Below are positions 836 through 30,850 of a DNA stretch of 35,245 nt, piece after piece; the stretch's first letter is position 1, and each line of letters begins with the position of its first letter. The notes under the pieces were generated by a model. That model did not search any database, was not told where the DNA came from, and saw nothing but the letters and a program-made list of their open reading frames with translations. The translations under genes were made by a program, and so were the position numbers. The stretch comes from Clostridia bacterium DTU025 (GTDB taxonomy: Bacteria; Bacillota; DTU025), in assembly GCA_001513145.1 (NCBI GenBank), contig LFSP01000034.1, forward strand, positions 4,799 to 40,043, read 5' to 3'.

Positions 836-2671
836 ATGGGCAGAAGCGGAAGCTCCCGCGGCGCGGGCAGCTCCTCTGAAATCGGCAACGGCGCAGCTCT
901 GGCTGGCGTCGGGTTTTGGGCGCAGGCAGCGCTCTTCCTCGCGGCCATTCCCGTGATCATGTTCAGGTTCGTGGCGCGCATCGACGTTCCATGGCAGGTC
1001 AGCGCATTTCATATGCCCGGCGTCCGCCTGGCCAGCTCAAGCGCGGGCGCTCTCATAAGCGCGCTTGGAGCGTACGTCGCCATCAGGGCGTGGATGTGCC
1101 TGTCGCTGGTGGGAGCGAGCCCTTTGGGTCAAGCCCCCCGCGTCCTGGTCACCCGCGGCATCTACCGTTTCGTGATGAATCCCATGTACTGGGGGTATAC
1201 CGTGTTCTGGCTGGGCATGACTGTGCGCCTACGCAGCGCCGCCATGCTGGCGGCGTCGGCCGTGGTGGGAGCGGGTCTCGCTCTTTGGAGCCTCGCGGTG
1301 GAGCGCCCAGCCCTCAGGCGCAGGTTCGGCGCCGAGTACATCGAGTATGAGCGACACACCCCGTCCATCCTGCCCACCTGGAAGGTGCTGTTCTACGACT
1401 GGCGCGACTTCCCCATGATCCGGATGCTGGTGGCGTTCGTCCTCAGGATCGTCGCCCGGGCACTGTGGCGTGTCGACGTCAAGGGCATCCAGCATGTGCC
1501 CAGAAAGGGGCCGGGCGTCATCGTCTCTAACCATGTGATGTACCTTGATCCGTTCCTCATCAATATGTTCGCAACGGCCTCCACCAGATATGTCGCTTCC
1601 GACGAGCTGTTCCGCAAGCCCTTCACCAGGTGGTTCTTCCGTGCCATGGGAGCCATATCGAAGAAGAGATGGAGTAGGGACATAGGCGTGCTGAGGCAGA
1701 TCCGTTCCGCGCTCAACCGGGGAGAGCTGGTGGGGATATTCCCCGAAGGGGGGCGCAACTGGGACGGCGCGCCGGTGCCAGTGGGCGACGAGGTCTACCG
1801 TCTGCTGATGCACCTGGACGCTCCCGTCACCTGCGTGAGCCTCCACGGCGCCCATGAGGCGTGGCCCCGCTGGTGCCGCTGGCCTTCAGTCTGCAACGTC
1901 ACCGTGGAGTTCTTCGAGCCGCTGCGCCCCTCGGATTTCGAAACCGTCGAGCGCTTCAGGCACGAGGTGGAAAGGCGCATCTTCGCGTGCGCCGATGATG
2001 AGCCTCAGCCCAGGAAGGGCGTTCCAGCCCGCGGGCCATCGCACGTCGGGATCACCACGGTGGCATGGGGGTGCCTCAGGTGTGGCGCTCCGATGAGCCT
2101 GGGCCACACTGATGCTGGCCTTGAGTGTCGCTCGTGCGGCGCGTCGTATACGGTGACACCAGCGCTGGAAGTCGTGGACGACGCCACCGGCCGCCGGATG
2201 CTGGAGCGAGACTACAGGGCTGCGCTGCTGGAGCGCTTGCGGGCAGGCAGGATGCTTGATGCACCGGGCGGCGAGTTCAACGTCGACTGCCAGGCGGACG
2301 TGTATAGCATACGTTCCACCCGCGAGCTCGTCCCGCTGGCAAGGGGCGCGTTGAGGCTCACACGGTCCGGCCTGCATTTCTCAGGCAGGGCCGCGCCGCG
2401 CAAAGGCGAGCGAGGCGAGCGGGGCAAGGGGGAGCCTTTCGAGCTTGACTGTGCCGTTGAAGACATCGATTTCACCTATCTGAACCTGGCAAACCATTTG
2501 GTCGTGGTCAGTCGCGGCCGGGCGTTGCAGTTCCACATAAAGGGCGACTCGCCGGTGAGGTGGGAGGATTACCTGCTTACGGCGAGGGGGTCAGCTGTTC
2601 GCCAGTGGCGCAGCGGCGAGCAGGTGCGCAGGCGCGCCAAGGCCAACGGAGGAGGCGTCGATCCCGCATGA
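836..2671 (+). CDS. Membrane ICMT-like / PlsC-like acyltransferase / zinc-ribbon fusion, copy 1
   Basis: This 611-residue protein has four recognisable parts. The N-terminal ~180 residues contain several hydrophobic segments and a phospholipid/isoprenylcysteine methyltransferase-like signature: TRGIYRFVMNPMYWG at 106-120, then an ERPALRRRFGAEYIEYE block near 156-172. The RHP/RNP signature reads MNP (114-116). Residues ~205-385 are a PlsC-type lysophospholipid acyltransferase domain with NHVMYLD (NHx4D, 232-238) and FPEG (302-305) intact. A zinc ribbon follows (C413, C416, C431, C434). The last ~120 residues look beta-rich and may be a PH/GRAM-like lipid-binding domain. The ATG is preceded by a weak AGGCGG. 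The stop overlaps the next gene's start, so the two paralogues are probably co-translated. A role in membrane-lipid modification is inferred; the substrate is unknown. Confidence 0.8.
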   Translation: MGRSGSSRGAGSSSEIGNGAALAGVGFWAQAALFLAAIPVIMFRFVARIDVPWQVSAFHMPGVRLASSSAGALISALGAYVAIRAWMCLSLVGASPLGQAPRVLVTRGIYRFVMNPMYWGYTVFWLGMTVRLRSAAMLAASAVVGAGLALWSLAVERPALRRRFGAEYIEYERHTPSILPTWKVLFYDWRDFPMIRMLVAFVLRIVARALWRVDVKGIQHVPRKGPGVIVSNHVMYLDPFLINMFATASTRYVASDELFRKPFTRWFFRAMGAISKKRWSRDIGVLRQIRSALNRGELVGIFPEGGRNWDGAPVPVGDEVYRLLMHLDAPVTCVSLHGAHEAWPRWCRWPSVCNVTVEFFEPLRPSDFETVERFRHEVERRIFACADDEPQPRKGVPARGPSHVGITTVAWGCLRCGAPMSLGHTDAGLECRSCGASYTVTPALEVVDDATGRRMLERDYRAALLERLRAGRMLDAPGGEFNVDCQADVYSIRSTRELVPLARGALRLTRSGLHFSGRAAPRKGERGERGKGEPFELDCAVEDIDFTYLNLANHLVVVSRGRALQFHIKGDSPVRWEDYLLTARGSAVRQWRSGEQVRRRAKANGGGVDPA

Positions 2672-4470
2672 CCTACAGAAGCGGCAGGCCCGTCTGGGCG
2701 GGGCTGTTGATCGTTGGAACGTACTTTGTTGCTGTGCCTTGGGCGCTCCGGAAAGCCGCCGCCTGGCTGGCTCCGGCCTTGCCTGGCGCGATGGCCTGGC
2801 CTTACGTGAGGGTTCCGCTGGGCGTGGCCATCTGCGCGCTGGGCGCGTACGTGGCGGCGAGGGGGTATATGGTCCTCGCGCACATGGGCAAGAACTGGCC
2901 CGGCGGGCGCACGATGTATCTGGTGGACACCAACACCTACAGGTTCATCCGGCACCCGGTGTTCTGGGGCTACACCGTGTTCTGGGTGGGGCGGTCGATC
3001 ATCGCCGGATCGTGGAGCTTGCTTGCGGCCACCGGCCTGTTGGCGGCGGGGTTCGCGGTGGTGGCGGCGCTGGAAGAGCGCGAGCTGGCGCAGAGGTTCG
3101 GCGACGATTTCCTGGAGTACCGCAGGTCCGTCGGGGCAGTGATACCGGACTTCGCCGCCCTCGTGGAGGACTGGCGGGACATTCCCAACGTGGGCCTGAT
3201 AGTCATAACGCTGGCGCGGCCGCTCGGGGAGTTCCTGTGGAGGGTACGGGCTGTGGGCATGGAGCACATCCCTCGCAAGGGCCCTGTGGTGTTCGCGTCC
3301 AACCACATGACCAACGCCGATCCATGGGCCATCGCCCTGTTCGCTACGAGGATGATCCACTTCGTCACCGCAGACGAGGTGTTCCGCCACCCCTTCGGCA
3401 GGTGGTTCTTCGGGGCCCAGGGCGCCATACGCAAGAAGAAGTGGACGCGGAACGTGTGGGTGCTTCGGGAGATGAAGCGCATCGTCGACAGCGGGCGCGC
3501 CGTCGGCATCTTCCCGCAGGGCCAGTACAACTGGGACGGCGGGCACAACGTCGTCGGCGACGAAGTATACCGCGTGCTGCGCTTCCTGAACGCCCCCGTG
3601 GTGCCGGTCACCTTCGTCGGAGCGCACGAGGCGTGGCCTCCCTGGTCTTTCTGGCCCGCCCGCAGCGACTGGGAGGTCAGGTTCTTCGAGCCGGTGCACC
3701 CCCGCGACTACGCTGACGTGGCCGAATTCCGCAAGGCGCTGGACTCGAAGATGTTCTCCACCAACGGCTACCCGCCTGTGCGGCGCAGGGGCTTCGCATC
3801 GCACAAGGGCATCACTGTCGTTCTGTGGGGCTGCGTCAGGTGCGGCGGCGCCGCCACCCTGGAGGAGACCAGGGAGGGGGTGCGGTGCCGGAAATGCCGG
3901 TCTGAGTTCAAGGTTGAGCCTGATCTCAAAATTGTAGACAAGGCCAACGGGCGCGCCATGACTGAGGCGCAGTACCGGTCGACCCTCCTGAAGATGCTCG
4001 CAGACGGGAAGCTGGAGGACGCCGCCGACGGCAGGCTGTCGCTTGCCAGCCGCGCGAAGGCGTACAGGATCGAGTCCACTGACCTGTTGACCAGGGTGGG
4101 CGAGGGCACCGTGAGCTTGACCAACGAGCAACTGGCCTTCGCCGGCACGTCGGAGAGGGGAGAGGCGGTCTGCTTGGAGATTCCCGTGGCAGACGTGGAC
4201 TTCACGTTCCTGAACGGCGCGGGTCACCTAGTGGTTTCCGCCGGTCCGCTGGGCGTCTACCAGTTTGCGTTGATAGAAGACTCGAATCTCCGACTCGAAG
4301 ACTATCTCATGCACGCCAGGGGCAGAATTGTGCGCATGTGGCCGACGCCGGAGGAGATCCGCGAGCGGGCCAGGGCGCGCCGGCGCCAACGGCAGGAGGC
4401 GGCAGAAGGCGCGGCTGAGGCTGAGGCTGCGGCGGAGGCAGGGGTTGAGGCGGAAGCCGGGGTCGAGTAG
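2668..4470 (+). CDS. Membrane ICMT-like / PlsC-like acyltransferase / zinc-ribbon fusion, copy 2
   Basis: This 600-residue paralogue shares the same architecture along its whole length with the preceding gene. The start is the ATG whose ATGA overlaps the upstream stop, with GGAGG at 2649-2653; an in-frame start further upstream would lie inside copy 1. The methyltransferase-like region keeps the canonical RHPVFWG (95-101) and EERELAQRFGDDFLEY (near 136-151). The acyltransferase region keeps NHMTNAD (212-218), but motif III reads FPQG (282-285) instead of FPEG. Zinc-ribbon cysteines are at 389, 392, 407 and 410. The tail is very Ala/Glu-rich after an Arg-rich stretch. Copy 2 thus keeps the signature lost in copy 1 and has changed the one copy 1 keeps, which suggests division of labour or a hetero-oligomer. 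Confidence 0.8.
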   Translation: MTYRSGRPVWAGLLIVGTYFVAVPWALRKAAAWLAPALPGAMAWPYVRVPLGVAICALGAYVAARGYMVLAHMGKNWPGGRTMYLVDTNTYRFIRHPVFWGYTVFWVGRSIIAGSWSLLAATGLLAAGFAVVAALEERELAQRFGDDFLEYRRSVGAVIPDFAALVEDWRDIPNVGLIVITLARPLGEFLWRVRAVGMEHIPRKGPVVFASNHMTNADPWAIALFATRMIHFVTADEVFRHPFGRWFFGAQGAIRKKKWTRNVWVLREMKRIVDSGRAVGIFPQGQYNWDGGHNVVGDEVYRVLRFLNAPVVPVTFVGAHEAWPPWSFWPARSDWEVRFFEPVHPRDYADVAEFRKALDSKMFSTNGYPPVRRRGFASHKGITVVLWGCVRCGGAATLEETREGVRCRKCRSEFKVEPDLKIVDKANGRAMTEAQYRSTLLKMLADGKLEDAADGRLSLASRAKAYRIESTDLLTRVGEGTVSLTNEQLAFAGTSERGEAVCLEIPVADVDFTFLNGAGHLVVSAGPLGVYQFALIEDSNLRLEDYLMHARGRIVRMWPTPEEIRERARARRRQRQEAAEGAAEAEAAAEAGVEAEAGVE

Positions 4471-4547: not shown

Positions 4548-5266
<719 letters not shown>

Positions 5267-5270
<4 letters not shown>

Positions 5271-6121
5271 ACTGCCTCACCTGCTTCCTGCGCTGCTTCC
5301 TGCGTGACTTCCTCCATCGCGCCTTCCTTGAGGGTGGCAAGAAGCTCCTCGTCCTCCTCGGAGCCGAGGTAGGCCTCGATGACGTCGGGGTTCCGCTGGA
5401 CCTCCTCAGGCGTGCCCTCCGCGATCTTCCTGCCGTACTCCATCACTGCCACCACGTCGGATATGCCCATGACGACGTGCATGTCGTGCTCGATGAGGAA
5501 CACGGTGATGCCTGAATCGCGGATCTGGCGGATCTTGTCCATGAGCTCGTCGCTCTCGTTCTCGTTCAGCCCGCCGGCGGGCTCGTCGAGGATGAGCAGC
5601 TTCGGGCGGCTGGCCAGGGCGCGGGCGATCTCAAGGCGCCTGCGGTCTCCATAGGAGAGGTTCTTGGCCAGCTCGTCGCGGAACTCCCATATCCCCATCA
5701 GGCGCATGCACTCTTCGGCGAAGTTGAAGGCCCGGGCGTCCTCCTCCCGTCGCGACTTGGTGTTGAGGAGGCACGCGATAACCCCCGACCTGCAGCGGCA
5801 ATGCTGCCCTGACACGACGTTCTCGAAGCAGGTGAGGTTCTCGAACAGCCTGAGGGTCTGGAAGGTTCGGGCTATGCCGGCTTCCACGACGGCGTGCGGC
5901 TGGATCCCGGTGATGTTCTTCCCGTCGAAGACCACCTGGCCGGTATCGGGGCTGTAGATGCCGGTGACCAGGTTGAAGACGGTGGTCTTGCCGGCGCCGT
6001 TGGGGCCGATCAGGCTGGTGATGCTGCCCTCCATCACGTCGAGGGTAAAGTCGGCGACGGCTTTCAGGCCGCCGAAGTTCTTCGATATGTTGTCTATTCT
6101 CAGAAGCGCCTTCCCGGTCAC
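5267..6121 (-). CDS. livG: Branched-chain amino-acid ABC transporter, ATPase LivG
   Basis: This is the second ATPase of the transporter, 284 residues from the GTG at 6121. That GTG overlaps the livM stop (GTGA) and has a purine-rich GGGAGAG about 10 bases upstream. An in-frame ATG at 6154 lies inside livM and has no better site. Walker A is GPNGAGKT (39-46), the signature is the degenerate LSYGDRR typical of LivG, Walker B is LLILDEP, and the switch His is in FLIEHDM. The C-terminus carries an extra, acidic Glu/Ala-rich tail of about 30 residues after the usual EAYLG end, which most LivG proteins lack. Confidence 0.93.
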
Positions 6122-7140
6122 TTGCCACCACTCTCCCGCATCTTCGTAGTCCATCTGGTGCTGGGCCAGAGCCCCTGCGGCCTGAAGATCATCATCAGCA
6201 CCATTGCCAGGCCGAAGAAGAGCATCCTGTACCGAGCGAAGTCACGCAGCACCTCAGGCAGGACCAGCATGGCTCCTGAGGCCAGGATGACGCCGGGGAT
6301 CGACCCGGTGCCGCCCAGGATGACGATGGCGAACAGCATGACCGAGGCGGCGAAAGTGAAGGAGTCAGGGGATATGACCATCATCTTCGCCGCGTATATG
6401 GTGCCTGTGGCCCCGGCGATGCCGGCGCCGATGGTGAACGCCAGCGCCTTGGCCCAGCGCGTGTCGACGCCGGTGGACTCAGCGGCCACGGGGTCCTCGC
6501 GCACGTAGTTCCAGGCCCTGCCGATGCGCGAACGCTGCAGCCGGAAGAGGGAGAAGAGGAGCACGGCGACGCAGGCCCATACCAGCACGTAGAAATCGCG
6601 GGGGGTCTGTATCACCTTGCCGAAGATCCTGAACTGGTCCAGCACCAGGAGGCCGTTGGGGCCGCCGGTGAGGCCGAACGGGTTGTTGATCAGGGTTATG
6701 CGGATCATCTCGTTGAGGCCGATGGTGACCACCAGCAGGTAGTCGCCTCTCAGGTGCATGATCGGCGCGGTCAGGATGTACCCGGCCAGGGCCGCGGTCA
6801 GGCCGCTCAGCACCATGAGAATCCACAAGTTTATGCCAAACCGCTGCGAAAGGATGGCGGTGGTGTAGGCGCCGATAGCGTAGAATGCGCTGTGCCCCAT
6901 GTTGAAGAGGCCCACCTCGCCCAGGATGATGTTGAGGGAGAGGCTCAGCAGCGCGTTGATGCCCCAGAACACGCACACGTCGATCCAGTAGTCAGATGCC
7001 ACGAAGGGCAACACTATCAACACAGCTGCGAGGATCGCCAGGAACAAGGTGGTACTGGACGTCGACATCCTCGACGTCCTTGCCTTCGCCAGTGCCGAGT
7101 TCGCAGTTGGAGTTTTCTGAATGTCATGGCCGTTGCTCAT
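6118..7140 (-). CDS. livM: Branched-chain amino-acid ABC transporter permease LivM
   Basis: This inner-membrane permease subunit has 340 residues when started at the ATG at 7140. That ATG overlaps the livH stop (ATGA) and is preceded by GGAGAAGGT; a longer in-frame start at 7230 would lie inside livH. A polar N-terminus of ~28 residues is followed by multiple hydrophobic segments. The conserved block LSLNIILGEVGLFNMGHSAFYAIGAY, of which NMGHSAFYAIGAY is the most diagnostic part, identifies LivM. A later segment, FAIVILGGTGSIPG, is the family's cytoplasmic coupling region. It pairs with LivH to form the channel. Confidence 0.92.
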   Translation of the reverse strand: MSNGHDIQKTPTANSALAKARTSRMSTSSTTLFLAILAAVLIVLPFVASDYWIDVCVFWGINALLSLSLNIILGEVGLFNMGHSAFYAIGAYTTAILSQRFGINLWILMVLSGLTAALAGYILTAPIMHLRGDYLLVVTIGLNEMIRITLINNPFGLTGGPNGLLVLDQFRIFGKVIQTPRDFYVLVWACVAVLLFSLFRLQRSRIGRAWNYVREDPVAAESTGVDTRWAKALAFTIGAGIAGATGTIYAAKMMVISPDSFTFAASVMLFAIVILGGTGSIPGVILASGAMLVLPEVLRDFARYRMLFFGLAMVLMMIFRPQGLWPSTRWTTKMRESGGK

Positions 7141-8057
7141 ACCTTCTCCGCCACCCTCTCTCCAAGTAGTCCTGTGGGCCTGAAGATCAGCAGCAGGATC
7201 AGGATGAGGAACACCATGACGTCTTTCCATGCAGCGGATATGTAGCCTGCGCCCAGCATCTCAAGGATGCCCAGCAGCAGGCCGCCTAGCATGGCGCCTG
7301 GAATGTTCCCTATCCCTCCGAGGATGGCCGCGGTGAATGCCTTCAGGCCGTACGACCACCCGACGCTGAAGTGGATCTGCCTGTAGTACAGGCCCAGAAG
7401 CACTCCGGCGATGGCGCCGAGAGCGGGGCCGATGATGAAGATCAGCCTGATGACGTGGTCGACGTTGATGCCCATCAACCTTGCTGTGTCGTGGTCGATG
7501 GCCGTCGCCCGGATGGCCGTGCCGGCCGTGGTGCGCTGAACGAACATATAGAGGCCTACCATAAGAAGAAGGGATACCGCCATGATGAGGACCTGCATGA
7601 AGCTGATGTTCACGCTGGCAACCCGCCACGTTGCCTCAGGAGCCGACCACGGAGGGTAGGCCTGGTACCTTGCTCCCCATACCAACATCGCGGCGTTCTG
7701 CAGGAACTGCGATACGCCGAGGGCTGACACCACTGCAGCGAGGCGGCCGGACTTCCTCAAGGGCCTGTAGGCCACCTGCTCAACGGACACACCGAGGATG
7801 GCCACTCCCACGGTGGAGGCGGCCGTGGCTATCAGGAGCATGAGCCAGAGGGGTAGTCCGGAGTCGGCTAGGACCATGACCAGTGTCGTGTAGCCCAGAT
7901 AGGATCCGATCATGAAGAACTCGCCATGAGCGAAGTTGATGAGCCTCATCACCCCGTATACCATGGTGTATCCGAGAGCGACCAGGGCGTACACCGCCCC
8001 GACTGTGAGGCCGTTTATCATCTGGTTGAGGAAGAATACCATGCTGTAGCTCACCAT
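7137..8057 (-). CDS. livH: Branched-chain amino-acid ABC transporter permease LivH
   Basis: This integral membrane permease of about 306 residues has the diagnostic RLINFAHGEFFMIGSYLG near residues 40-57 and a later AFTAAILGGIGNIPGAMLGG coupling block. Its hydrophobic profile fits about eight membrane segments. The start is not fully settled: GGAGG directly abuts the ATG at 8057, which is too close, while an in-frame ATG at 8042 lies 15 bases from it. The intervening GTG is also possible. The gene is separated from livK by 137 bp holding two hairpins, so its expression may be set below that of livK. Confidence 0.92.
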   Translation of the reverse strand: MVSYSMVFFLNQMINGLTVGAVYALVALGYTMVYGVMRLINFAHGEFFMIGSYLGYTTLVMVLADSGLPLWLMLLIATAASTVGVAILGVSVEQVAYRPLRKSGRLAAVVSALGVSQFLQNAAMLVWGARYQAYPPWSAPEATWRVASVNISFMQVLIMAVSLLLMVGLYMFVQRTTAGTAIRATAIDHDTARLMGINVDHVIRLIFIIGPALGAIAGVLLGLYYRQIHFSVGWSYGLKAFTAAILGGIGNIPGAMLGGLLLGILEMLGAGYISAAWKDVMVFLILILLLIFRPTGLLGERVAEKV

Positions 8058-8072
8058 CCTCCACTTTGCCGC

Positions 8073-8109
8073 GACCGGCCAAGGCTCCGGTGGGGAGCCT
8101 TGACCGGTC
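8073..8109 (-). promoter_or_regulatory. Strong intercistronic hairpin between livK and livH
   Basis: GACCGGCCAAGGCTCC (8073-8088) is complementary to 8094-8109 with a single mismatch, giving a 16-bp stem with a 5-nt loop. It lies 15 bases before the livH ribosome-binding site. No T-run follows on the minus strand, so it more likely stabilises the upstream livK message or causes partial termination than ends transcription. Excess of the binding protein over the permeases is usual in such operons. Confidence 0.6.
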
Positions 8110-8135
8110 TTGGCGATCCGCTAACCGGAAGCTTT

Positions 8136-8164
8136 GAGAGGGAGGCGCGGGCACCTCCCGTCTC
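8136..8164 (-). promoter_or_regulatory. Second hairpin downstream of livK
   Basis: GAGAGGGAGG (8136-8145) pairs with CCTCCC-g-TCTC (8154-8164), ten pairs with one bulged base, starting about 30 bp after the livK stop. With the neighbouring 8073-8109 hairpin it forms a tandem structure at the 3' end of livK that could protect that message from 3' exonucleases. Confidence 0.45.
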
Positions 8165-8194
8165 CATGGATTGCACGGACTGCTCGTGGGTCAA

Positions 8195-9340
8195 CTAGCG
8201 ACGAGGCCTGAAGTCGCCCTCCCCGAACACTTCGTACGCCAGGTAGATGGCGCCCTCGCGGTCGCCGTTGGCGTCGAAGGAGATCGGGCCGGTGATGCCG
8301 GGGTAATCCTTGAGCCCATCATGCAGGTAGTTCATGAGGGTCTCCGAGTTGGTGGAGCCGGTGGCCTCGATGGCCGCGCAAATCACCTTGAAGGCATCCG
8401 CGGCGTACACAGGCCACGGGCTTGACGGCGGAGCGCCGTGCCGACGGACGTACTCCTCGATGAAGGCCTTGGACTCAGGATACTCCAGGTCGGTGGGCAT
8501 GGGCTCCTGGGTCATCAGGGCACCCTTGGCGACATCGAGGCCGGCGATCTTGACGAACTCGTCGTTCACCGCCGCGTTGCCGCCGACGAAGGTGGCGGCT
8601 ATGCTCATGGTGCGCATCTGCCTGATGATGAGGCCCGCCTCGGCGTAGTAGCCGGTGAAGTACACGACATCAGGGTTGGTCAGGCTCATGCGGCCGAGGA
8701 TTGCGGTGAAGTCGCGCTCGCCAGGGGTGATGGCGTCGTAGAAGACGACCTCAGCCTTGGTCTGCGCCTGCAGAGGACGGAGCGCTGCCTCTGCGAGGCC
8801 CTTGCCGAAGGTCGTATTGTCGTGGATTATGGCTATGCGTTTCGCGCCGAGCACGTCGACGGCGAAGTTGGCGAAGAACTCGCCCTGCTTGTCATCGCGG
8901 AAGCATGTTCTGAAGAAGTACTTGCGGCCCTGCTGGGTGAGGGTTTCCGCCGTGGAGCCGTACGCCACGTTAACGATCTTGTTCCTCTCGTAGATGGCTG
9001 CGGCAGGATCGTTCACTGACGAGCCGTAAGTGCCGACGACGGCCACCACTCTCTCGCTGACCATCCTCTGAGCTGCCAGAGCAGACTGCTGCGGCTGACC
9101 CTGGTCGTCGCCGAGCACTATCTGGACTGGACGGCCGAGGATGCCGCCGGCTGCGTTGATCCAGTCCGCCACGATCTTCACGCAGTTGTAGGCCATTTCG
9201 CCTTCATAGGCCCATGGCCCGGTGATGGGCGCCTGGAGGCCGATCTTGATGGGTTCTTGGGCTCCTGCGAATGGAACCAACGATAGGAGCGCCAGAACGA
9301 CTAGGACCACCAGTAACCGAGTTGACCGTCTGCTACTCAC
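8195..9340 (-). CDS. livK: Branched-chain amino-acid ABC transporter substrate-binding protein LivK
   Basis: This 381-residue extracytoplasmic binding protein of the Peripla_BP_6 type delivers the ligand to LivHM. It starts at GTG 9340 with GGAGGTG 8 bases upstream. The signal peptide is SRRSTR, then a Leu/Val core ending FAGA|QEPIKIG, with a signal peptidase I site and no lipobox cysteine. The family opening IKIGLQAPITGPWAYEGE, the segment INAAGGILGRPVQIVLGDDQ and FRTCFRDDKQGEF are all present. It is the first gene of the operon and is transcribed away from a 399-bp gap containing a palindromic operator-like site. Confidence 0.92.
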   Translation of the reverse strand: MSSRRSTRLLVVLVVLALLSLVPFAGAQEPIKIGLQAPITGPWAYEGEMAYNCVKIVADWINAAGGILGRPVQIVLGDDQGQPQQSALAAQRMVSERVVAVVGTYGSSVNDPAAAIYERNKIVNVAYGSTAETLTQQGRKYFFRTCFRDDKQGEFFANFAVDVLGAKRIAIIHDNTTFGKGLAEAALRPLQAQTKAEVVFYDAITPGERDFTAILGRMSLTNPDVVYFTGYYAEAGLIIRQMRTMSIAATFVGGNAAVNDEFVKIAGLDVAKGALMTQEPMPTDLEYPESKAFIEEYVRRHGAPPSSPWPVYAADAFKVICAAIEATGSTNSETLMNYLHDGLKDYPGITGPISFDANGDREGAIYLAYEVFGEGDFRPRR

Positions 9341-16749: not shown

Positions 16750-19700
16750 ATGCGTACGCTCAAAGCTCGCGCCTTGAGGCATGTTGCGCTCCTGGCAGCG
16801 TTCGTCGCCGCCGCAGGAGCAGTCGCACCCTCAGGCACTCTCGGTCTCCACTACGCGGAACACTTCCAAGGTGAAGTGCTCGTTCAGCTCAAACCGGGGG
16901 CATCTCGGGATGACATCGAAGCTACTATCATCGACTCCCTCTCCACCCACTCTGGCCGCATGCTGCTGAAGGTCGGCGTCGCCGACGGCGAAAGCCTTCC
17001 GCAGGCGCTGGCAAGGCTGATCGCCAGCGAGTTCGTGGATCGTGCGGAACCAAATTACGTGTGGCGCGCCTGCACGTTACCTGTCCATCCGCTGAGCCGT
17101 CCATCCATCCACCTTACCGGCCAGCCGCCGAGCTACCATGAGGGACTCTCCGCGAACACTTCCCAGAGCTCCACTCCACCCAGCGGCGATCCCGACTTCT
17201 GGCCTCAGTGGAACCTGCACAACGTCGGTCAGGACTTCTACCCGGGCATCCTCTGGGAGAAGGGCATCCCCGGCGCCGACGTCGACGCCGCCAGCGCCTG
17301 GGCCGCACGCACCGACGCCTCCGAAGTCCTGGTGGCGCTGCTCGACACCGGGGTGAGCGTGAACCACCCTGACCTTGCGCAAAACATCTGGCGAAACCAA
17401 GGCGAGATCCCCGACGACGGCATCGACAACGACGGCAACGGCTACATCGATGACGTGCATGGCTGGGACTTCCTCCACGACGACGGTTCCGTGTTCGACG
17501 GCGCCTTCCCCGACATGCACGGCACGCACATAGCAGGCATTATCGCAGCCGACGGCGGCAACGGCATCGCCGTGGCGGGTGTGGCCTGGAAGGCCCCCCT
17601 GCTTCCCCTCAAAGTGCTGGGCCCCGACGGCGTCTGCTCCACCTGGGCCCTGCTTGAGGCCATCGACTACGCCGTTCGCATGGGCGCTTCCATAGCCTGC
17701 TGCACCTGGTCTGCCGCTGGATATAGCAGTCTACTGGAGACTGCTATCGCCGACTCAGGGATGCTATTCATCGTGGCCGCAGGCAACACCGGTGCAGACA
17801 ACGACCTCGATCCGCGATACCCCGCGTGCTACGACCTGCCTAACATCATCTCAGTTGCCGCCTCAGACTGGAACGACAACCTCGCCAACTTCTCCAGCTA
17901 CGGCCGGGAATCGGTTCACATCGCCGCGCCCGGCCATTGGATCATCTCCACATACGGCCCGGTTGGGTCTGCCAACACCGCCTGGATGGGAGGCACCTCG
18001 CAGGCAGCGGCTCACGTGGCCGGCGCCGCTGCCCTGGTGGCTGCGGCACATCCTGACATCCCCCTCTTTGAGGGCGCCGGCGCCCCAGGGCCAGGGCAGG
18101 GGGCCCGATCGCAGCTCACCGTCAGGAAGGTCATCCTCGAGTCCGCAGACCAACACCCATCCCTGGCCGGCAAAGTGAGCACCGGCGCGCGCCTGAACGT
18201 CGCCAACGCCGTCAGCCTGCGGTTCCCTCTGAGAGCAGAAGTGTCGGCCGACATCGCCTTCGGCCAGGCGCCTCTCGGCGTTCGCTTCACTGCCACTGTG
18301 GACCGGCCAGCCGACGTCGCAGCGGTCTACTGGCATTTCGATGACCTCGCCTCCACGCTCGCCTCGGCGCCCACATCCCGCTCGGCGGCAGCTAGCCGGC
18401 AAGAGGGGTTCACCGCCTACCGCGTCTTCGAAGAGGAGGGCTCGTACCTGGTGCGCTTCACGGCCGTGGCCGCTGACGGAAGCGTCACCGAATGGCCTAT
18501 CCAGGTGGTCGTCGCGAACCCCGGTACCGCCATCTACGTGGACGACGACGGCGGTCACGACTGGAGCGACTCCTTCCTGGCCGACGCCGCGGCCGCCGGC
18601 ATCGACTGCGTGTCGATCGACGCGAGGCTGCCTTTCAGCCTGCCCGCCAACCTCGGCCCCAGGATGCTCATCTGGGATACGGGCCTTTCATGGAACGACA
18701 CACTCCTTCCCGACCAGGAGGATTATCTCGCGGCCTGCCTCGACAGCGGTGGCCGCCTCCTCCTGCTCTCAGCCGACTACTTCACTGACCGCGCCCAGGT
18801 GACGCCCTTCGCCAGGGACTACCTTCACGTTGCCGATGCCGAAGTTGACGTGTCCGGCTGGCCGCCGCTTCGCCGATGGGAGGGGGTTTCGGGCGATCCC
18901 ATCACCGACGGCATGTCCTTCGAGGTGATCGTCGGGCGCGGCCTGGAGGACGCCCTCGTGCCCGCCTCCGGTGCCCAGCCCATCCTGGTAAACCGTGACG
19001 GCTCCGAGCCCGTGTATCCAGCCATCAGGTATGCCGATGACACCTATCGCGTTGTGTTCAGCACCATGCCGTGGTCTGAGCTGCCCATGGAGGGCGACGA
19101 TCCCAACAATTCGGTCTATTTGCTCAAGAAGATCTACGACTATCTCACCGAGGGGATCGGCACGCCGCCCCCTCCTCCGCCGCCCGAGCTGCTCGCCCAG
19201 GCAAGCAAGCGATTCGTTCCGGTTGGCGAGGAGGTCACCTTCAAAGCCGCGGCGGAAGCCGCCACCTTTGTCTGGTCCTTCAGCGACGGTGCGGACGACA
19301 TGGAGGGACCCGTTGTCGCTAAGGCCTTCACCGAGCAAGGCCTTCATGTTGCGGCACTCACCGCGACGTGGGACGACGGCCGCACCAGCCAGGCCTCGAT
19401 CGAGGTGGCAGCCCTGGAGCCTGACGATGTCGTGTACGTGTTCGACGAGGCGCCCGGAGGCGCCGCCGGCGAGCAGCTGGACGATGCGCTCCGCGCCATC
19501 GGACAGGGCTTCGTGCAGGTGGAGCCCGCCATGATGCTGGACCAGGCCGCCTCCCGCGAGGGCCTCGAGCGGTTCCGCGTCCTATGGAACTGCGGAGAGC
19601 TTGGCACGGTCGATGCCGCGGAGCTCGACGCCATCGCCGACTACCTGGTGCGTGGCGGCGGACTCTTCCTCATCGGCCAGGACGCCCTCCAGGGCGACCC

Positions 19701-20589
19701 CGCGTGCGCCGAAATGATGCGCGTCGCGTTCGTGCATCGCGACGTAGGATGCGCGCAGGTCTTCGGCGTCGAGGACAGCATCATCAGCGGGGCTGGCCAC
19801 ATGGATCTTGTCTTCCCAGTAGAATTTGAAGACAGGACCGACGTCCTTGCCATCGCCGCGCAGGCGGATCCGGTGCTCTTCACTGAAGACGGAAGCGTCT
19901 GCGCCCTCAGCTACAGCGGACAGGGCCATCGTCTCGTGTTCATGTCGCTGGCGTTCGAGGCATTGTCACTACAGTCTCCAATGAGCCCGTTGAAGCTGCT
20001 GGCGAACGTGCTGGCGTGGCTTAACAGGCCCCTGGTGACGGTGCTGTCGCCGGTGGGCGGGGAGGTGTATGTGGGCGCGGTGCCCGTCAGGTGGAGCGCC
20101 GACGACCGCCTCGGCGAGGAGCTCGCGATTGGCCTGGCCTACTTGGCCGATGGCGGCGAGAGCTGGACGCAGCTGGCCAGCGGCGAGAGCGACGACGGGG
20201 AATACACGTGGAGCGTGCCCCGGACGGCGCCGGGCGGCCGCTACGTCGTGAGGGTGACGGCGAGCAAGGCCGGCGGTTACTCGGGCCACGGCGACAGCGG
20301 CGAGTTCGTGGTGGCGGCGGCGGGTGTCAGCGAGTTCGCGTTCGGGCCCAACCCCGCCAGCGACTTCGTGAACTTCTACGTGAACGCGGAGGGCGGGGCC
20401 GCGCTGTACGTGCACGACATCGCCGGCAGGCTGGTGTACCAGCACCGGTTCGAGGCAGGTGAGATGCACCATGTGTGGCCGCTGGTGGGCTCCGACGGGA
20501 GGCCGCTGCCGAACGGCCTGTACATGTGCTACCTGGTGGGCGAGGACGGCGCCAGGTCGGAGGTGCGCAGGCTGGTGATCAGCAGGTGA
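16750..20589 (+). CDS. Large secreted subtilisin-like (S8) serine protease
   Basis: This 1279-residue exported protease starts at ATG 16750 with GGGAGGT about 11 bases upstream. A signal peptide (hydrophobic to ~residue 26) is followed by a propeptide-like region (GEVLVQLKPGASRDDIEA, EPNYVW). The S8 triad is D199 (LLDTGV), H257 (MHGTHIAG) and S417 (GGTSQAAAHVAG), with oxyanion N346 (AAGN). The insert DGIDNDGNGYIDDVHGWDF is a typical subtilase calcium loop. Downstream come a PKD-like domain (~500-590), an alpha/beta domain like a glutamine-amidotransferase fold (~595-790), a six-Pro linker, a second PKD-like plus alpha/beta pair (~815-1090), an Ig-like SPVGGEVY domain, and a C-terminal FlgD/type-IX-tail-like domain (FGPNPASDFVNFYV...GLYMCYL). 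A degradative extracellular role is inferred. Confidence 0.9.
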   Translation: MRTLKARALRHVALLAAFVAAAGAVAPSGTLGLHYAEHFQGEVLVQLKPGASRDDIEATIIDSLSTHSGRMLLKVGVADGESLPQALARLIASEFVDRAEPNYVWRACTLPVHPLSRPSIHLTGQPPSYHEGLSANTSQSSTPPSGDPDFWPQWNLHNVGQDFYPGILWEKGIPGADVDAASAWAARTDASEVLVALLDTGVSVNHPDLAQNIWRNQGEIPDDGIDNDGNGYIDDVHGWDFLHDDGSVFDGAFPDMHGTHIAGIIAADGGNGIAVAGVAWKAPLLPLKVLGPDGVCSTWALLEAIDYAVRMGASIACCTWSAAGYSSLLETAIADSGMLFIVAAGNTGADNDLDPRYPACYDLPNIISVAASDWNDNLANFSSYGRESVHIAAPGHWIISTYGPVGSANTAWMGGTSQAAAHVAGAAALVAAAHPDIPLFEGAGAPGPGQGARSQLTVRKVILESADQHPSLAGKVSTGARLNVANAVSLRFPLRAEVSADIAFGQAPLGVRFTATVDRPADVAAVYWHFDDLASTLASAPTSRSAAASRQEGFTAYRVFEEEGSYLVRFTAVAADGSVTEWPIQVVVANPGTAIYVDDDGGHDWSDSFLADAAAAGIDCVSIDARLPFSLPANLGPRMLIWDTGLSWNDTLLPDQEDYLAACLDSGGRLLLLSADYFTDRAQVTPFARDYLHVADAEVDVSGWPPLRRWEGVSGDPITDGMSFEVIVGRGLEDALVPASGAQPILVNRDGSEPVYPAIRYADDTYRVVFSTMPWSELPMEGDDPNNSVYLLKKIYDYLTEGIGTPPPPPPPELLAQASKRFVPVGEEVTFKAAAEAATFVWSFSDGADDMEGPVVAKAFTEQGLHVAALTATWDDGRTSQASIEVAALEPDDVVYVFDEAPGGAAGEQLDDALRAIGQGFVQVEPAMMLDQAASREGLERFRVLWNCGELGTVDAAELDAIADYLVRGGGLFLIGQDALQGDPACAEMMRVAFVHRDVGCAQVFGVEDSIISGAGHMDLVFPVEFEDRTDVLAIAAQADPVLFTEDGSVCALSYSGQGHRLVFMSLAFEALSLQSPMSPLKLLANVLAWLNRPLVTVLSPVGGEVYVGAVPVRWSADDRLGEELAIGLAYLADGGESWTQLASGESDDGEYTWSVPRTAPGGRYVVRVTASKAGGYSGHGDSGEFVVAAAGVSEFAFGPNPASDFVNFYVNAEGGAALYVHDIAGRLVYQHRFEAGEMHHVWPLVGSDGRPLPNGLYMCYLVGEDGARSEVRRLVISR

Positions 20590-25374: not shown

Positions 25375-27417
25375 TTAGTTGAGCGCACGCGTGGAATTGG
25401 TGAGCAGGCCGCAGGCCTGAAGGCGCTTGAGGCGGCGCCACAGCGTGGTCTTGCTGATGCCGAGAGCGCGGGCGGCTGCGGCCTTGTTGCCGCCGGCAGC
25501 AGCCAGCGCCGTGAGGATGGCACGGGTCTCCAGAGTGCGCAGGTCGGGAAGGCTGGGCGTCTCACCAGGATGAGATGGGGATGCGCGCCCGCTCAGGCCG
25601 GCGGGTGCGTGTTCATTCGCCGTGGCTTCACACGCCGCCTTCGCGCCTGCCACCAACGTGCTGGCGCCGCTCGATGAAGTGTCGGTCGCCAGGGCGTAGC
25701 GGCTGAGGATCTTGTCAACCTCGGCCGCCTTTATCGGCTGGCGTTCCTGGCCCACGGCTACCAGCTGCTCAATGGTGTTCTCCAGCTGCCTGACGTTGCC
25801 AGGCCAAGAGTAGGATGCCAGGCGATCGAGAGCATCCGGCGTGAAGGTGCGGGCCGGTCGCTGCAGGCGGGCCGCAACTGACCTCATGAGGTGCACGGCC
25901 AGCACTGGGATGTCCTCAGGCCGCCTTCTGAGCGGAGGGATCTCAAGGTTGAGCACGCTGAGCCTGTAGAAGAGGTCGTCCCGGAAGGCCCCTTGCTGCA
26001 CCAGGCTGAATAGGTGTTTGTTGGTGGCAGCGATGATGCGCACGTCGATGGGTATGACTCTCGTGCCGCCGACGCGCATGGTCTGGCGCTCCTGCAGAAC
26101 CCGGAGGAGGCGGGCCTGCAGGGGCTTTGACATCTCTCCGATCTCGTCCAGGAAGATGGTGCCCATGTGGGCGATCTCGAAGAGGCCGGGCTTGCCTGAC
26201 TGGCGGGCTCCTGTGAACGCCCCAGGGGCGTAACCGAAGAGTTCGCTCTCGAGCAGGGTTTCGGGAATGGCAGCGCAGTTCACAGCGACGAAGGGCCCGT
26301 TCTGCCTGGCGCTTTCGGAATGGATCCCGTGGGCGAAGAGCTCCTTTCCTGTGCCTGTTTCGCCCTGAATGAGCACTGTGGAGTCGACCTGGGCGAACCG
26401 TGCGGCCAGGTTCACCGCCTCCCTGATGGCGTCGCTGACCCCCACCACGTCGTTGAGCCGGTGCTTGCTGGTATGCCCGGTATCGCGCACTTCCTCCCTT
26501 ACGATGCGTTCCAGCTCGCGGATGCGGGTGACGTCGTCAAGGCTCAACACTGCTCCGACGAAAGCCCCGTCGACAACGATGGGTTCGCGGCGGGCCAGCA
26601 CCGTGAGATGACCGATCCTGTCGATCCACTCGCCCCGGGACTCCAGGTCGAGCAATTCGGCGCCGGTCTGATGCGACCCGAGGATCGTTGACAGGTGCGT
26701 GCCGATGGCTTCCTCCGAGCTAATCCCCACCATGCGCTCTGCCGCTTGGTTGAAGTGGGTCACCTTTCCGGACGAATCCACGGCGACGACGGCATTGGTC
26801 ACGGATGAGAGTATCGCCTTCAGCCGTTCAGCCCTCTCGGCTTCGCTGTGTCGGGCCTTGGCTACAGCCATGGCCTCATTCAGGGCATCGTACACCGCCT
26901 CCTTCCCCGAGCTCAAGGGCACGAAGGGCAGTCCCACCTCGGCTGCGCGCCTCTGAACCAGGTTCCATCCGACGATGGCGCCGACACCTCCGTCGCGCAA
27001 AGACGTGATGGCCTCGCAGGTGTCGTCCCATGACTCCGCCACTCGGGTTGACACCTTTACGCCCAGCACGCCATCGAGGCTGCCCACCCAGCGGATCATG
27101 TCGTCGGAGCCGACGATGCCCACATGGTCTGTGTAACGTTTGGCCTTGATCAACGCCCGCACGGCATCATAGCCAGTGACCCGCACCTTGACCACAGGTG
27201 CCGGCAGCCCGCACCTGTCCATCAGCCTGGCGGTGGTGCCCCTGCTGACGATGACGGTGAAGCCCCGGGCGTTGGCCTCGTGGGCGATCTCCACGGCGGT
27301 CAACGGATTGCCCATCACCACTTCGAGCGAGAGCCCCATCTCCAGCGCTACCTGTCGGGCGATGTTTGCCAGCTCCTCATTGGTGGCTACGAACAGGATG
27401 TCATCGGAAACCTTCAT
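25375..27417 (-). CDS. Sigma-54-dependent activator with PrpR-type sensor domain
   Basis: This 680-residue regulator has a PrpR_N-like effector domain (~8-185; VIVSRGTTARLMD is diagnostic), a PAS domain (~195-300), an AAA+ domain and a Fis-type helix-turn-helix. The AAA+ part has Walker A GETGTGKE (352-359), the sigma-54-contacting GAFTGA (399-404) intact, and Walker B IFLDE (421-425). The DNA-binding end is NKAAAARALGISKTTLWRRLK. An Ala/Ser-rich linker of ~60 residues separates the last two. It is divergent from the CYTH-Ppx-Tct cluster, which has a near-consensus sigma-54 promoter, so it very probably controls it. PrpR-type domains sense small organic acids or their CoA derivatives. Confidence 0.92.
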   Translation of the reverse strand: MKVSDDILFVATNEELANIARQVALEMGLSLEVVMGNPLTAVEIAHEANARGFTVIVSRGTTARLMDRCGLPAPVVKVRVTGYDAVRALIKAKRYTDHVGIVGSDDMIRWVGSLDGVLGVKVSTRVAESWDDTCEAITSLRDGGVGAIVGWNLVQRRAAEVGLPFVPLSSGKEAVYDALNEAMAVAKARHSEAERAERLKAILSSVTNAVVAVDSSGKVTHFNQAAERMVGISSEEAIGTHLSTILGSHQTGAELLDLESRGEWIDRIGHLTVLARREPIVVDGAFVGAVLSLDDVTRIRELERIVREEVRDTGHTSKHRLNDVVGVSDAIREAVNLAARFAQVDSTVLIQGETGTGKELFAHGIHSESARQNGPFVAVNCAAIPETLLESELFGYAPGAFTGARQSGKPGLFEIAHMGTIFLDEIGEMSKPLQARLLRVLQERQTMRVGGTRVIPIDVRIIAATNKHLFSLVQQGAFRDDLFYRLSVLNLEIPPLRRRPEDIPVLAVHLMRSVAARLQRPARTFTPDALDRLASYSWPGNVRQLENTIEQLVAVGQERQPIKAAEVDKILSRYALATDTSSSGASTLVAGAKAACEATANEHAPAGLSGRASPSHPGETPSLPDLRTLETRAILTALAAAGGNKAAAARALGISKTTLWRRLKRLQACGLLTNSTRALN

Positions 27418-27521
27418 CTCTCATCTGAGCCCCCTCAGCCGACCCTTTCGTGCAAGCCTCATCGGCCCTCATCAGTCTTCACGTGGATGATACCATATTG
27501 AACCGCATCTGAAACCGTGAA

Positions 27522-27538
27522 AGTATCGTCTTGATACT
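27522..27538. promoter_or_regulatory. Candidate upstream activator site of the sigma-54 regulator
   Basis: The perfect inverted repeat AGTATC-N5-GATACT lies about 60-75 bp upstream of the -24 box at 27600 and about 105 bp before the regulator's own start. This is a suitable position for an enhancer-binding protein. Related GATAC words occur at 27489-27493 and in the liv promoter region. Confidence 0.5.
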
Positions 27539-27597
27539 ACCGACGGCGGGCCGTGCGGCTTAACCTGCTCTGTCAGGCCTTCGTGCGCTGGCATCAG

Positions 27598-27614
27598 TTG
27601 GCACGGTTTGTGCA
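27598..27614 (+). promoter_or_regulatory. Sigma-54 (-24/-12) promoter
   Basis: TTGGCACGGTTTGTGCA has the invariant GG (27600-27601) and GC (27612-27613) exactly 12 bp apart. It departs from the consensus YTGGCACGrNNNTTGCW by one base. It lies about 100 bp upstream of the first gene of the CYTH-Ppx-Tct cluster. Confidence 0.7.
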
Positions 27615-27716
27615 TTAGTATGTGGGTGAGCTGGCGACTGGGTGGCCCCTGAGGATGGCCCCTAATCCCCAGATCACCTTCGGAACATATATGCGCAAGG
27701 AACAGGAGGGGTGCAC

Positions 27717-28304
27717 TTGGAAGGTAAGATCATACCTAGGTGGGAATGGCGCACGTTCGCCGAGAACCTTGGGGCCGAAGGCCAAAGGGTGCTGACCCGC
27801 GGCGAGGCCAGAGTGAAGGAGAGCCGGGAGACTTACGTCCTGTCGCGCAGAAGCGACGAGAACACTAAGATCCGCGACGGCCTGATGGACATCAAGTCGC
27901 TCCAGGCTGTGAACGAGGACGGCCTCGAGCAGTGGTGCCCCATCATGAAGGAAGAGTTTCCCCTCAGCGCCGACAAGGTCCAGCGGCTGCTTGACGTCCT
28001 GAAGGTATCGGCTCCAGCTGAGCTGAGAGACTCGTACACCTTCGGGGAGTTCCTCTCCGAGCTTGTGGAGATTCATCCTGATCTTGTGGCGGTGGATGTG
28101 AAGAAGCGCAGACACGGGCTTACCATCAACGGCGCGATCGTGGAGTTCGCGGAGACCGAGTTCAATGGCATCCCCCTCCAGACCATCTGCGTCGAGCACG
28201 CCGACCCTGAGCTGGTGATGGCCACCGTGCGCGAGCTCGGCCTCGACCACCTGGAGAACATCAACTACATAAAGGCCATGAAACGGATTGTGGGGATCAG
28301 GTAG
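27717..28304 (+). CDS. CYTH-like phosphohydrolase domain protein
   Basis: This 195-residue protein starts at TTG 27717, 7 bases after AGGAGG; a GTG at 27711 overlaps that site. The charged-strand pattern resembles the CYTH (triphosphate tunnel) fold: PRWEWRTF with E10 and R12, TKIRDG (K51, R53), MDIK (D58, K60), DVKKRRHGLTINGAIVEFAETEFNG and a late KAMKRIVG. CYTH proteins act on triphosphates or polyphosphate. The first motif is WEWRT, not a full ExExK, so activity is uncertain. It abuts a Ppx/GppA phosphatase gene with no gap, which supports a shared phosphate-polymer or nucleotide role. Confidence 0.65.
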   Translation: MEGKIIPRWEWRTFAENLGAEGQRVLTRGEARVKESRETYVLSRRSDENTKIRDGLMDIKSLQAVNEDGLEQWCPIMKEEFPLSADKVQRLLDVLKVSAPAELRDSYTFGEFLSELVEIHPDLVAVDVKKRRHGLTINGAIVEFAETEFNGIPLQTICVEHADPELVMATVRELGLDHLENINYIKAMKRIVGIR

Positions 28305-29231
28305 ATGAACAGGAAAGCAGTGATCGACATCGGCACGAACTCCATCAAGATGTTCGTTGCCGAGATGGCCCCAAACGGAAGCCTCACTAAGATAATCGAC
28401 GTGAACAACATCGCTCGCCTGGGCGAGGGCATGGGCGAGGAAGGCCTGCTCAAGCCTGAGGCCATAGCCCGCAACGTCGAAGCCGTGGACCAGTTCGTCA
28501 AGCAGGCCGCAGCCAGCGGCGCAGGCCAGATCGTGGCGGTAGGCACCATGGCACTGCGCACAGCCAAGAACGCAGCTGAGTTCATAGATGCGGTGAAGAC
28601 AGCTACCGGCATCGATGTGAGGGTGATCCCAGGAGAGGTGGAGGCTCATCTGTCGTACCTCGCTGCGGTGTCGGGGCTGGGCCCGCACGCGGATGCCCTG
28701 GCCGTCTGCGACGTGGGAGGCGGCAGCTCCGAGTTTGTGTTCGGCCGCGGGGCCGAAGTCGACAGACGGCTCAGCATCAACCTCGGCGCTGTTAGAGTCA
28801 CCGACAGGTTCCTCACGGACGACCCGCCCGGCGCCGAGCAGGTGGAAGAGGCCAAGCGCTTCATCATGGACGAGCTCGAGGCCGGCGGCGTCAGGGGCGA
28901 GGTGGGACGTCTGGTGGGCATCGGCGGGACCGTGACGTCGCTGGGCGCCGTCAAGTTCGAGATGGTCCAGTACGATGCAGACCGTATACAGGGGGCCATC
29001 CTCACCGCCGCGGATGTTGACAGGCTCATAGAGCTCTTCATCTCCATGCCCTTGGAGCGGAGGAGGACGATCACGGGACTGCAGCCCAAACGGGCAGAGG
29101 TGATCGTCGGCGGGGCGTGCATACTGCGGTGCATAATGCAACAGCTTGGCGTGGCCGAGCTGACCATGAGCGACCGAGGTCTCAGGCATGGGCTGATGTT
29201 CCAGCTGTTCAGTGAGGGCTCAAACAGTTAA
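28305..29231 (+). CDS. Ppx/GppA family exopolyphosphatase / pppGpp phosphatase
   Basis: This 308-residue ASKHA-fold phosphatase has DIGTNSIKM (8-16) and DVGGGSSEF phosphate-binding loops, ALRTAKNAAEF and IGGTVTSLGA. Only the two-domain catalytic part is present, without the C-terminal HD-like domain found in longer Ppx and GppA proteins. The family removes terminal phosphates from polyphosphate or pppGpp. Its ATG directly follows the CYTH-like stop, so the two are co-translated. The sigma-54 promoter upstream suggests that expression depends on the PrpR-type activator. Confidence 0.9.
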   Translation: MNRKAVIDIGTNSIKMFVAEMAPNGSLTKIIDVNNIARLGEGMGEEGLLKPEAIARNVEAVDQFVKQAAASGAGQIVAVGTMALRTAKNAAEFIDAVKTATGIDVRVIPGEVEAHLSYLAAVSGLGPHADALAVCDVGGGSSEFVFGRGAEVDRRLSINLGAVRVTDRFLTDDPPGAEQVEEAKRFIMDELEAGGVRGEVGRLVGIGGTVTSLGAVKFEMVQYDADRIQGAILTAADVDRLIELFISMPLERRRTITGLQPKRAEVIVGGACILRCIMQQLGVAELTMSDRGLRHGLMFQLFSEGSNS

Positions 29232-29261
29232 CTACTAAGGATCATTTAGGAGGTCAGTGAG

Positions 29262-30227
29262 ATGAGGATCAACAGGGTACTAGTGTTGACTGCTGCTGCC
29301 GCGCTTATTGTGGCGTTGGCAGCAGGAGTGCTGGCCGCCGACTATCCGACACGACCCATCAGAATCATCAACTACGTTGCACCTGGCGGCCTGATGGACG
29401 TTACCACCAGAAAGTTCACCGAGGTTGCCGCCAAGTACACCAACGCCGTGTTCGTCGTGGAAAACCGCACCGGAGCGGGCGGACTCGTGGGAATGGAGTA
29501 CGTATTGAACCAGCCGGCCGATGGCTACACCATATTCGCCCCCACCATGTCCGTGGTGATCCAGGTGGTGGCCACGAGGAGCGACGTCGACAGGTACATC
29601 TGGGGCTTCGAGTGGACCTCGATGCTCATGAAGGACCCCGAGTGCATCATCACCAACAGCAAGCTGCCGATCAACACCTGGGAAGATGTCGTGGCCGACG
29701 CCAAGGCCAAGGGGGGCAGGCAGATCTGGGTGGGCCCGTCCACCGGAGGCAACGACCACCTCATGGCCATGAAGGTGTGGGACAAAGCCGGCATCATGGC
29801 CACGTGGATCCCGTACGAGAGCGGTCCGGCTGCCATGGCTGCCCTCATGGGTGGCCAGGGAGTTGCTTACGTTGGTAACCCCGCCGACATCATGGGCAGG
29901 CCCGACCTGAAGATCGCCGCCGTGTCCTCTGCCGAGAGGCTCCCTCAGTTCCCCGACGCGCCCACCTTCAGAGAGTTGGGCATCGAGGGACTGGACGAGG
30001 AGTCGATGTGGCGCGGCTTCTGCGTGAAGAAGGGCACGCCTCCGGAGGCCGTGCAGTGGCTGCAGAACCTGGTGGACCAGGTGACCAATGACCCCGAGTG
30101 GAGGCAGTTCTTCGAGAACCAAGCCATCGAAGTGGTTCACTACAAGACCGACAGGTTCACAGACATCGTCAGGCAGAACCTCGAGGACGCCGAGAAGTAC
30201 TTCAGGCAGTTCGGAATAATCCAGTAG
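29262..30227 (+). CDS. tctC: Tripartite tricarboxylate transporter substrate-binding protein TctC
   Basis: This 321-residue extracytoplasmic binding protein has a signal peptide ending AAGVLA|ADYPTRP and no lipobox cysteine. The Bug-family signature YPTRPIRIINYVAPGGLMDVTTRKF, whose YPTRPIRII core is diagnostic, is followed by VENRTGAGGLVGMEYV. It captures a carboxylate for the TctA/TctB membrane part. AGGAGGT precedes the ATG by 7 bases. It is 30 bp after the Ppx/GppA gene. Confidence 0.93.
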   Translation: MRINRVLVLTAAAALIVALAAGVLAADYPTRPIRIINYVAPGGLMDVTTRKFTEVAAKYTNAVFVVENRTGAGGLVGMEYVLNQPADGYTIFAPTMSVVIQVVATRSDVDRYIWGFEWTSMLMKDPECIITNSKLPINTWEDVVADAKAKGGRQIWVGPSTGGNDHLMAMKVWDKAGIMATWIPYESGPAAMAALMGGQGVAYVGNPADIMGRPDLKIAAVSSAERLPQFPDAPTFRELGIEGLDEESMWRGFCVKKGTPPEAVQWLQNLVDQVTNDPEWRQFFENQAIEVVHYKTDRFTDIVRQNLEDAEKYFRQFGIIQ

Positions 30228-30268
30228 TCCGAGCCTTCCGGGCTGCCCCATAGTTCGGAGGAGTTGAC

Positions 30269-30835
30269 ATGGACCGGTTCTCTTCTTGGGTGGCTGGCCA
30301 GGGGCAGGTGGTCCTGCCCCTGATCGGCGCCTCCATAACGCTGCTGAGCTGGGTTTTGGCGCGGACCGGCTCGATGCGGAAGTACGCCGGCAGGATAGCG
30401 GTAGATACAGGCCTCGTCTGCATAGGCCTGGTGGCGTACGCGCTGACCTACGGGTTCCGAGGAATGAGGTTCGCTGGAGCCAGCGCCGAGATGGTGCCCA
30501 GACTGTGGGCTGGGCTGCTGGTGGTGCTGGCCCTGGTGAGGCTGTTGCGCGCGTGGACCGGGAGAGAGGATCCCGATCCCGAGGTGGGACGGGTCGACAA
30601 GGTGCTGCTGCTCATGGCCTTGCTGGCAGCCAAGATCGTGTGCATCCCGTGGGTAGGCTACTACATCACGGCAGGACTGTTCGTGTTCGCATGCGGGCTG
30701 CTCCTGGGTTACCCGCACCGCGCTAGGCTCGCTCTGGTGTCGGCGATCTGGGTCGCTTTCTCATATCTCGTGTTCTACAGGCTGCTCACAGTTCCGCTAC
30801 CCACAGGCCAGCTCTTCGCTGGACTAGGCTGGTGA
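30269..30835 (+). CDS. tctB: Tripartite tricarboxylate transporter small membrane subunit TctB
   Basis: This 188-residue protein has four to five hydrophobic segments (near 14-30, 45-62, 78-92, 112-128 and 132-172) and the late GYYITAGLFVFACGLLLGY block typical of TctB. Such subunits are poorly conserved, so its position between tctC and tctA is the strongest evidence. GGAGGAG lies about 6 bases before the ATG. Confidence 0.88.
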   Translation: MDRFSSWVAGQGQVVLPLIGASITLLSWVLARTGSMRKYAGRIAVDTGLVCIGLVAYALTYGFRGMRFAGASAEMVPRLWAGLLVVLALVRLLRAWTGREDPDPEVGRVDKVLLLMALLAAKIVCIPWVGYYITAGLFVFACGLLLGYPHRARLALVSAIWVAFSYLVFYRLLTVPLPTGQLFAGLGW

Positions 30836-30850
30836 GAGAGGAGGGATGGG

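Follow-up and report, generated by a model that had tools for sequence, protein, structure and literature searches.

Tandem four-part lipid-enzyme fusions in uncultivated Bacillota look like specialised copies of a duplicated two-function enzyme

Two overlapping genes in the window (the whole stretch of DNA analysed here, 35,245 nucleotides) encode paralogous four-part proteins, and their motifs suggest that an ancestral two-function enzyme was duplicated and that its copies then specialised. In the best-supported reading, to which we give an even chance, copy 1 would be an acyltransferase and copy 2 a methyltransferase whose acyl-acceptor or binding site has changed. Duplication of a bifunctional enzyme, followed by specialisation, is suggested because the unduplicated relative in the metagenome-assembled genome (MAG) Firmicutes bacterium UBA4882 (L085), the single full-length copy of that genome, has RHP and FPEGQR intact together. 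The locus thus appears to offer a clear example, found in nature, of a fused enzyme dividing its two functions between its copies once duplicated in tandem, and it draws attention to membrane lipid chemistry that is unexplored in this uncultivated class of Bacillota.

The sequence-only reading had described tandem paralogues joining an ICMT/PEMT-like membrane region, a PlsC-like acyltransferase, a zinc ribbon and a possible PH/GRAM-like tail. Both ORFs are indeed present, and the four parts are recognised in each (Table 1). The start of copy 2 is best placed at the ATG preceded by GGAGG, and the 4-base overlap with the stop of copy 1 is identical in the relative G004. The locus is flanked by nadE on one side and by a branched-chain amino-acid transport operon on the other in the window's genome (G000) and in G004, G001 and G008. 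Elsewhere the window encodes a subtilase (Peptidase_S8) of 1279 aa with a PKD domain (16750-20589), and a PrpR-like sigma-54 regulator lies near tripartite tricarboxylate transporter genes (TctC, TctA; 25375-32359).

Table 1. Features of the fusion locus and its flanks (window positions unless a contig is named)
Feature	Position	Strand	Basis
Copy 1 (clade A), four-part fusion, 611 aa	836..2671	+	ORF and Pfam
Copy 1 PEMT/ICMT-like membrane domain (PF04191)	1043..1333	+	Pfam
Copy 1 MNP where RHP is expected	1175..1183	+	translation and alignment
Copy 1 PlsC-like acyltransferase (PF01553)	1469..1840	+	Pfam; fold match 5KYM
Copy 1 motif I NHVMYLD (HX4D)	1529..1549	+	alignment
Copy 1 motif III FPEGGR	1739..1756	+	alignment
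Copy 1 zinc ribbon CLRC..CRSC	2072..2137	+	family-invariant cysteines
Copy 1 PH/GRAM-fold tail	2282..2584	+	predicted structure and fold match
Copy 2 (clade B), four-part fusion, 600 aa	2668..4470	+	ORF and Pfam; ATGA overlap with copy 1
Copy 2 PEMT/ICMT-like membrane domain	2809..3105	+	Pfam; 4A2N by sequence and by fold
Copy 2 RHP	2950..2958	+	translation and alignment
Copy 2 PlsC-like acyltransferase	3241..3615	+	Pfam; 5KYM fold
Copy 2 motif I NHMTNAD (HX4D retained)	3301..3321	+	alignment
Copy 2 motif III FPQGQY (E and R gone)	3511..3528	+	alignment
Copy 2 zinc ribbon	3832..3897	+	family-invariant cysteines
Copy 2 PH/GRAM-fold tail	4042..4317	+	predicted structure and fold match
Branched-chain amino-acid transport operon, flank of the fusion locus	4548-9340		
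nadE side flank of the fusion locus	G000:C26:3969-4793		

Pfam searches placed both enzymatic domains above the curated cut-offs in both copies: PEMT (PF04191) with E 4e-11 in copy 1 and 2.7e-7 in copy 2, and Acyltransferase (PF01553) with E 6.5e-23 and 1e-13, respectively. The Pfam ribbon models scored below cut-off in both, and the tail had no Pfam match. The ribbon is formed by two CxxC pairs whose four cysteines are invariant across the family. AlphaFold models (mean pLDDT 75.5 for copy 1 and 83.2 for copy 2) contain membrane helices, a domain resembling PlsC, small strands in the ribbon region, and a tail of seven strands and a C-terminal helix, which matched the PH/GRAM structures of Lam6, ARAP3 and MTMR2 in Foldseek. 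The best fold match of both models is the Thermotoga maritima PlsC (5KYM). The copy 2 model also matched the methyltransferase Ma-ICMT (4A2N; prob 1.00, TMt 0.54, with a weak E of 9e-3), which is absent among the 50 best fold matches listed for copy 1. By sequence, the family profile matches both 5KYM and 4A2N (E 5.6e-8 for the latter), and the RHP and EE of the solved ICMTs 4A2N and 5V7P align at equal positions with the family. A methyltransferase-type fold of the N-terminal region is thus supported by ICMT homology in the profile and by the fold similarity of copy 2.

The motifs first reported for the two proteins, MNP and FPEG in copy 1 and RHP and FPQG in copy 2, are correct. Further changes had escaped that reading: K94, W96 and the second E of EE in copy 1, and the motif III Arg in copy 2, where FPEGxR became FPQGQY. 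Copy 2, with RHPVF and EE, fits the RHPxF/Y and EE of ICMT/PEMT enzymes; copy 1, with MNPMY and ER, does not. A survey of relatives showed that the reciprocal substitutions recur by clade and not at random. RHP, EE and FPQGQY occur in all six B-type copies that can be read at these positions; in the seventh (G003_C113) an assembly gap covers the motifs, and its apparent acyltransferase deletion is this N-filled gap. The B copy of G005 is cut at the C-terminus by a contig end. Among A-type copies FPEG is present in 4/4, all within FPEGxR, and the RHP position reads MNP, MDP or LHP ([M/L][N/D/H]P). The H of RHP is lost only in G000 and G004, and the g4 A copies and G008 read LHP, accompanied by EE in the g4 copies and by E[E/D] in LHP copies generally. 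Motif I HX4D is found in 12/12 aligned copies, and the motif IV position is Pro in B and Cys in A and the outgroups. Frameshifts or assembly errors were discarded as a cause of the motif changes, because FPQG and the non-RHP motifs are each seen again in assemblies made independently.

In the phylogenetic tree, B forms one clade (support 100/100) and A is weakly grouped (48/32). A single clade of A and G008 was rejected (p-AU 0.0007), which argues that the R to L change probably arose more than once.

Residue losses are concentrated in opposite halves. Of 69 acyltransferase residues that are otherwise invariant, clade B lost 16, and of 33 such PEMT residues it lost 0 (Fisher p 0.001); the copy 1 pair of G000 and G004 lost 6 of 25 PEMT residues (K94, W96, P97, D106, H115 and R172) versus 2 of 49 acyltransferase residues (p 0.015); these groups were defined after the alignment had been seen, and the p-values treat non-independent columns as independent. 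A fixed-difference test requiring both clades to be invariant was not significant (p 0.09). Among the changes in B are V234M (motif I), E304Q and R307Y (both motif III) and C333P (motif IV). Five positions separate the G000/G004 copy 1 from the remaining copies: K94, W96 and H115, with R114 and the second E in addition.

The acyltransferase stem branch measures 0.48 [0.37-0.63] in B versus 0.00 in A, and the G000-G004 distance after the stem is 0.22 in B versus 0.45 in A. The B acyltransferase is the slowest-evolving of all domains: between G000 and G004 the B copies are 83% identical in the acyltransferase and 66% in the PEMT domain (distances 0.22 and 0.54). Judged by its residues, the surroundings of the catalytic motifs have been rebuilt in this half of copy 2, which appears retooled rather than dead, because HX4D is kept and the domain is the most conserved of that protein. 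Relaxed constraint, as a mark of dead halves, was not seen in distances or in dN/dS. PEMT tip distances are 0.56 for copy 1 and 0.54 for copy 2, with NG86 dN/dS of 0.13 and 0.24, and dN/dS lies far below 1 in every domain of the compared pairs (0.04 to 0.34, with dS near saturation in several). As the PEMT domain evolves no faster in copy 1 than in copy 2, the case for loss of function is made here from specific residues only. The earlier proposal of one active half per copy is partly supported, by the clade-specific reciprocal motifs and by the loss of several otherwise invariant residues from the methyltransferase half of copy 1, but is too simple for the acyltransferase of copy 2 and for the copies that read LHP.

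These data also bear on two other readings. Both copies may still be bifunctional, with shifted specificities and substitutions that tune substrate choice without abolishing activity. The low dN/dS in all domains and compared pairs, the HX4D kept everywhere and the E[E/D] of the LHP copies speak for it, but the five altered positions of the G000/G004 copy 1 do not, nor does the LPAAT-alpha precedent, where replacing the motif III E by Q, or its R by A/K, is strongly inhibitory (reviewed in PMC6688108); we consider it unlikely. According to the same review, the Arg of the TmPlsC EGTR motif is placed to bind the LPA phosphate. On both grounds, ordinary LPA acyltransferase activity is not expected of copy 2. 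Its acyltransferase half could instead be a pseudo-enzyme that binds lipid or acyl-CoA and regulates the methyltransferase half or presents substrate to it, as the loss of the motif III Glu and Arg in 6/6 readable B copies, followed by strong conservation, would allow. The catalytic His and Asp kept without exception, together with the motif IV Pro in B, exceed the needs of a binding role, and make this quite improbable.

Full-length fusions were found in the window's family, in G008, a single-copy genome of the same taxonomic order, and in the MAG UBA4882. They comprise nine distinct genomes, all draft, with estimated completeness, where given, of 72 to 97%. No full-length fusion was found elsewhere in the phylum among 398 sampled genomes, and no relatives in the viral contigs searched; a first contig scan with copy 2 alone as query returned nothing. 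Full-length relatives were seen only in uncultivated Bacillota, probably of GTDB class UBA4882, a class name used in PMC11536998. Literature searches for the RHPxY motif, or for a fusion of this kind, gave no relevant match. Three-part proteins that lack the methyltransferase-like part are present in WOR-3, in Spirochaetes, in the window's order and in the same genome (G000:C9), and that of WOR-3 is homologous to the fusion over 356 columns. Because such proteins occur, the methyltransferase-like part looks like a late addition to an older three-part protein.

Copy B occurs without A in G001, G002 and G005. In the last of these, the decayed 3' end of a clade A copy lies directly upstream of B (L065:1563-1950; G005:C185). 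In G003 and G007, A and B lie on different contigs, and the one copy of G008 is A-like (LHP and FPEG), with no B. A tandem duplication between nadE and the transport operon, with later loss or dispersal, fits best, since the flanks recur, G005 keeps an A remnant and the g4 A copy adjoins nadE. An obligate heterodimer with one working half per copy, acylating and methylating one lipid, as first suggested, would agree with the reciprocal motif changes and with the coupled translation suggested by the ATGA overlap in G000 and G004, but is very doubtful because B persists without A and the two lie on separate contigs in another genus, and because the FPQG acyltransferase is the slowest-evolving domain.

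In the preferred reading of specialisation after duplication, an ICMT/PEMT-type SAM methyltransferase domain would have been joined N-terminally to the older acyltransferase-ribbon-PH protein. The gene of the resulting bifunctional enzyme of membrane lipids would then have been duplicated in tandem. The architecture, the motif pattern, the clades, the rates and the absence of A from some genomes are observed; the activities, the substrates and the direction of these changes are what we infer. Copy 1 would transfer an acyl chain onto a lysolipid, and its methyltransferase half, at least in the window's lineage, would have lost the cofactor-site motifs and now serve as a membrane anchor. Copy 2 is a predicted methyltransferase with RHPxF/Y and EE intact. 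Its acyltransferase half would have retained the catalytic His and Asp, given up the Glu together with the phosphate-binding Arg, and then been frozen; it probably binds, or acts on, some other acceptor that is not a phosphomonoester. The ribbon and the PH/GRAM tail probably dock the soluble domains to the membrane. Against this reading, the g4 A copies may still methylate, LHP is found in the single-copy G008 as well, the motif IV Pro of B is missing from A, the monophyly of A is weakly supported, and the genomes are few and draft.

PS decarboxylase (PF02666) was not found in 8/8 genomes searched, and the same search was positive in 6/14 controls, so PE is an unlikely methyl acceptor and was set aside as the methyl substrate. 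A CDP-alcohol phosphatidyltransferase (PF01066) was not detected in 7/8 fusion-bearing genomes searched, with 14/14 controls positive; the genomes with no detection are G000, G002, G003, G004, G005, G007 and G008, and G001 and G009 have one. The missing signal may reflect divergence or missing sequence. PlsY is present in 9/9 genomes searched and CdsA in 8/9, the exception being G007. That the two proteins put an acyl chain and a methyl group on an undescribed lipid, in bacteria apparently without the usual head-group enzymes, is a long shot.

Compared with known systems, both copies share with PlsC/LPLAT enzymes (PF01553; 5KYM) the fold and HX4D, and copy 1 also FPEGxR. They differ in the fusion to a methyltransferase-like domain, ribbon and PH tail; copy 2 differs further by FPQGQY and copy 1 by the missing motif IV Pro, and the position aligned with TmPlsC K105 is Ser, Thr or Ala in the fusion family. 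With ICMT/PEMT enzymes (PF04191, PF04140; Ma-ICMT 4A2N) the fusion shares the membrane helices, and copy 2 the RHPxF/Y and EE motifs; it differs in the attached acyltransferase and in the MNP and ER of copy 1, and scores far below the equivalog cut-offs for ICMT, LmtA and MddA. The three-part acyltransferase-ribbon-PH proteins resemble it in the acyltransferase-ribbon order and a homologous C-terminal region, with FPEGQR in most, and are unlike it in having no N-terminal methyltransferase-like domain.
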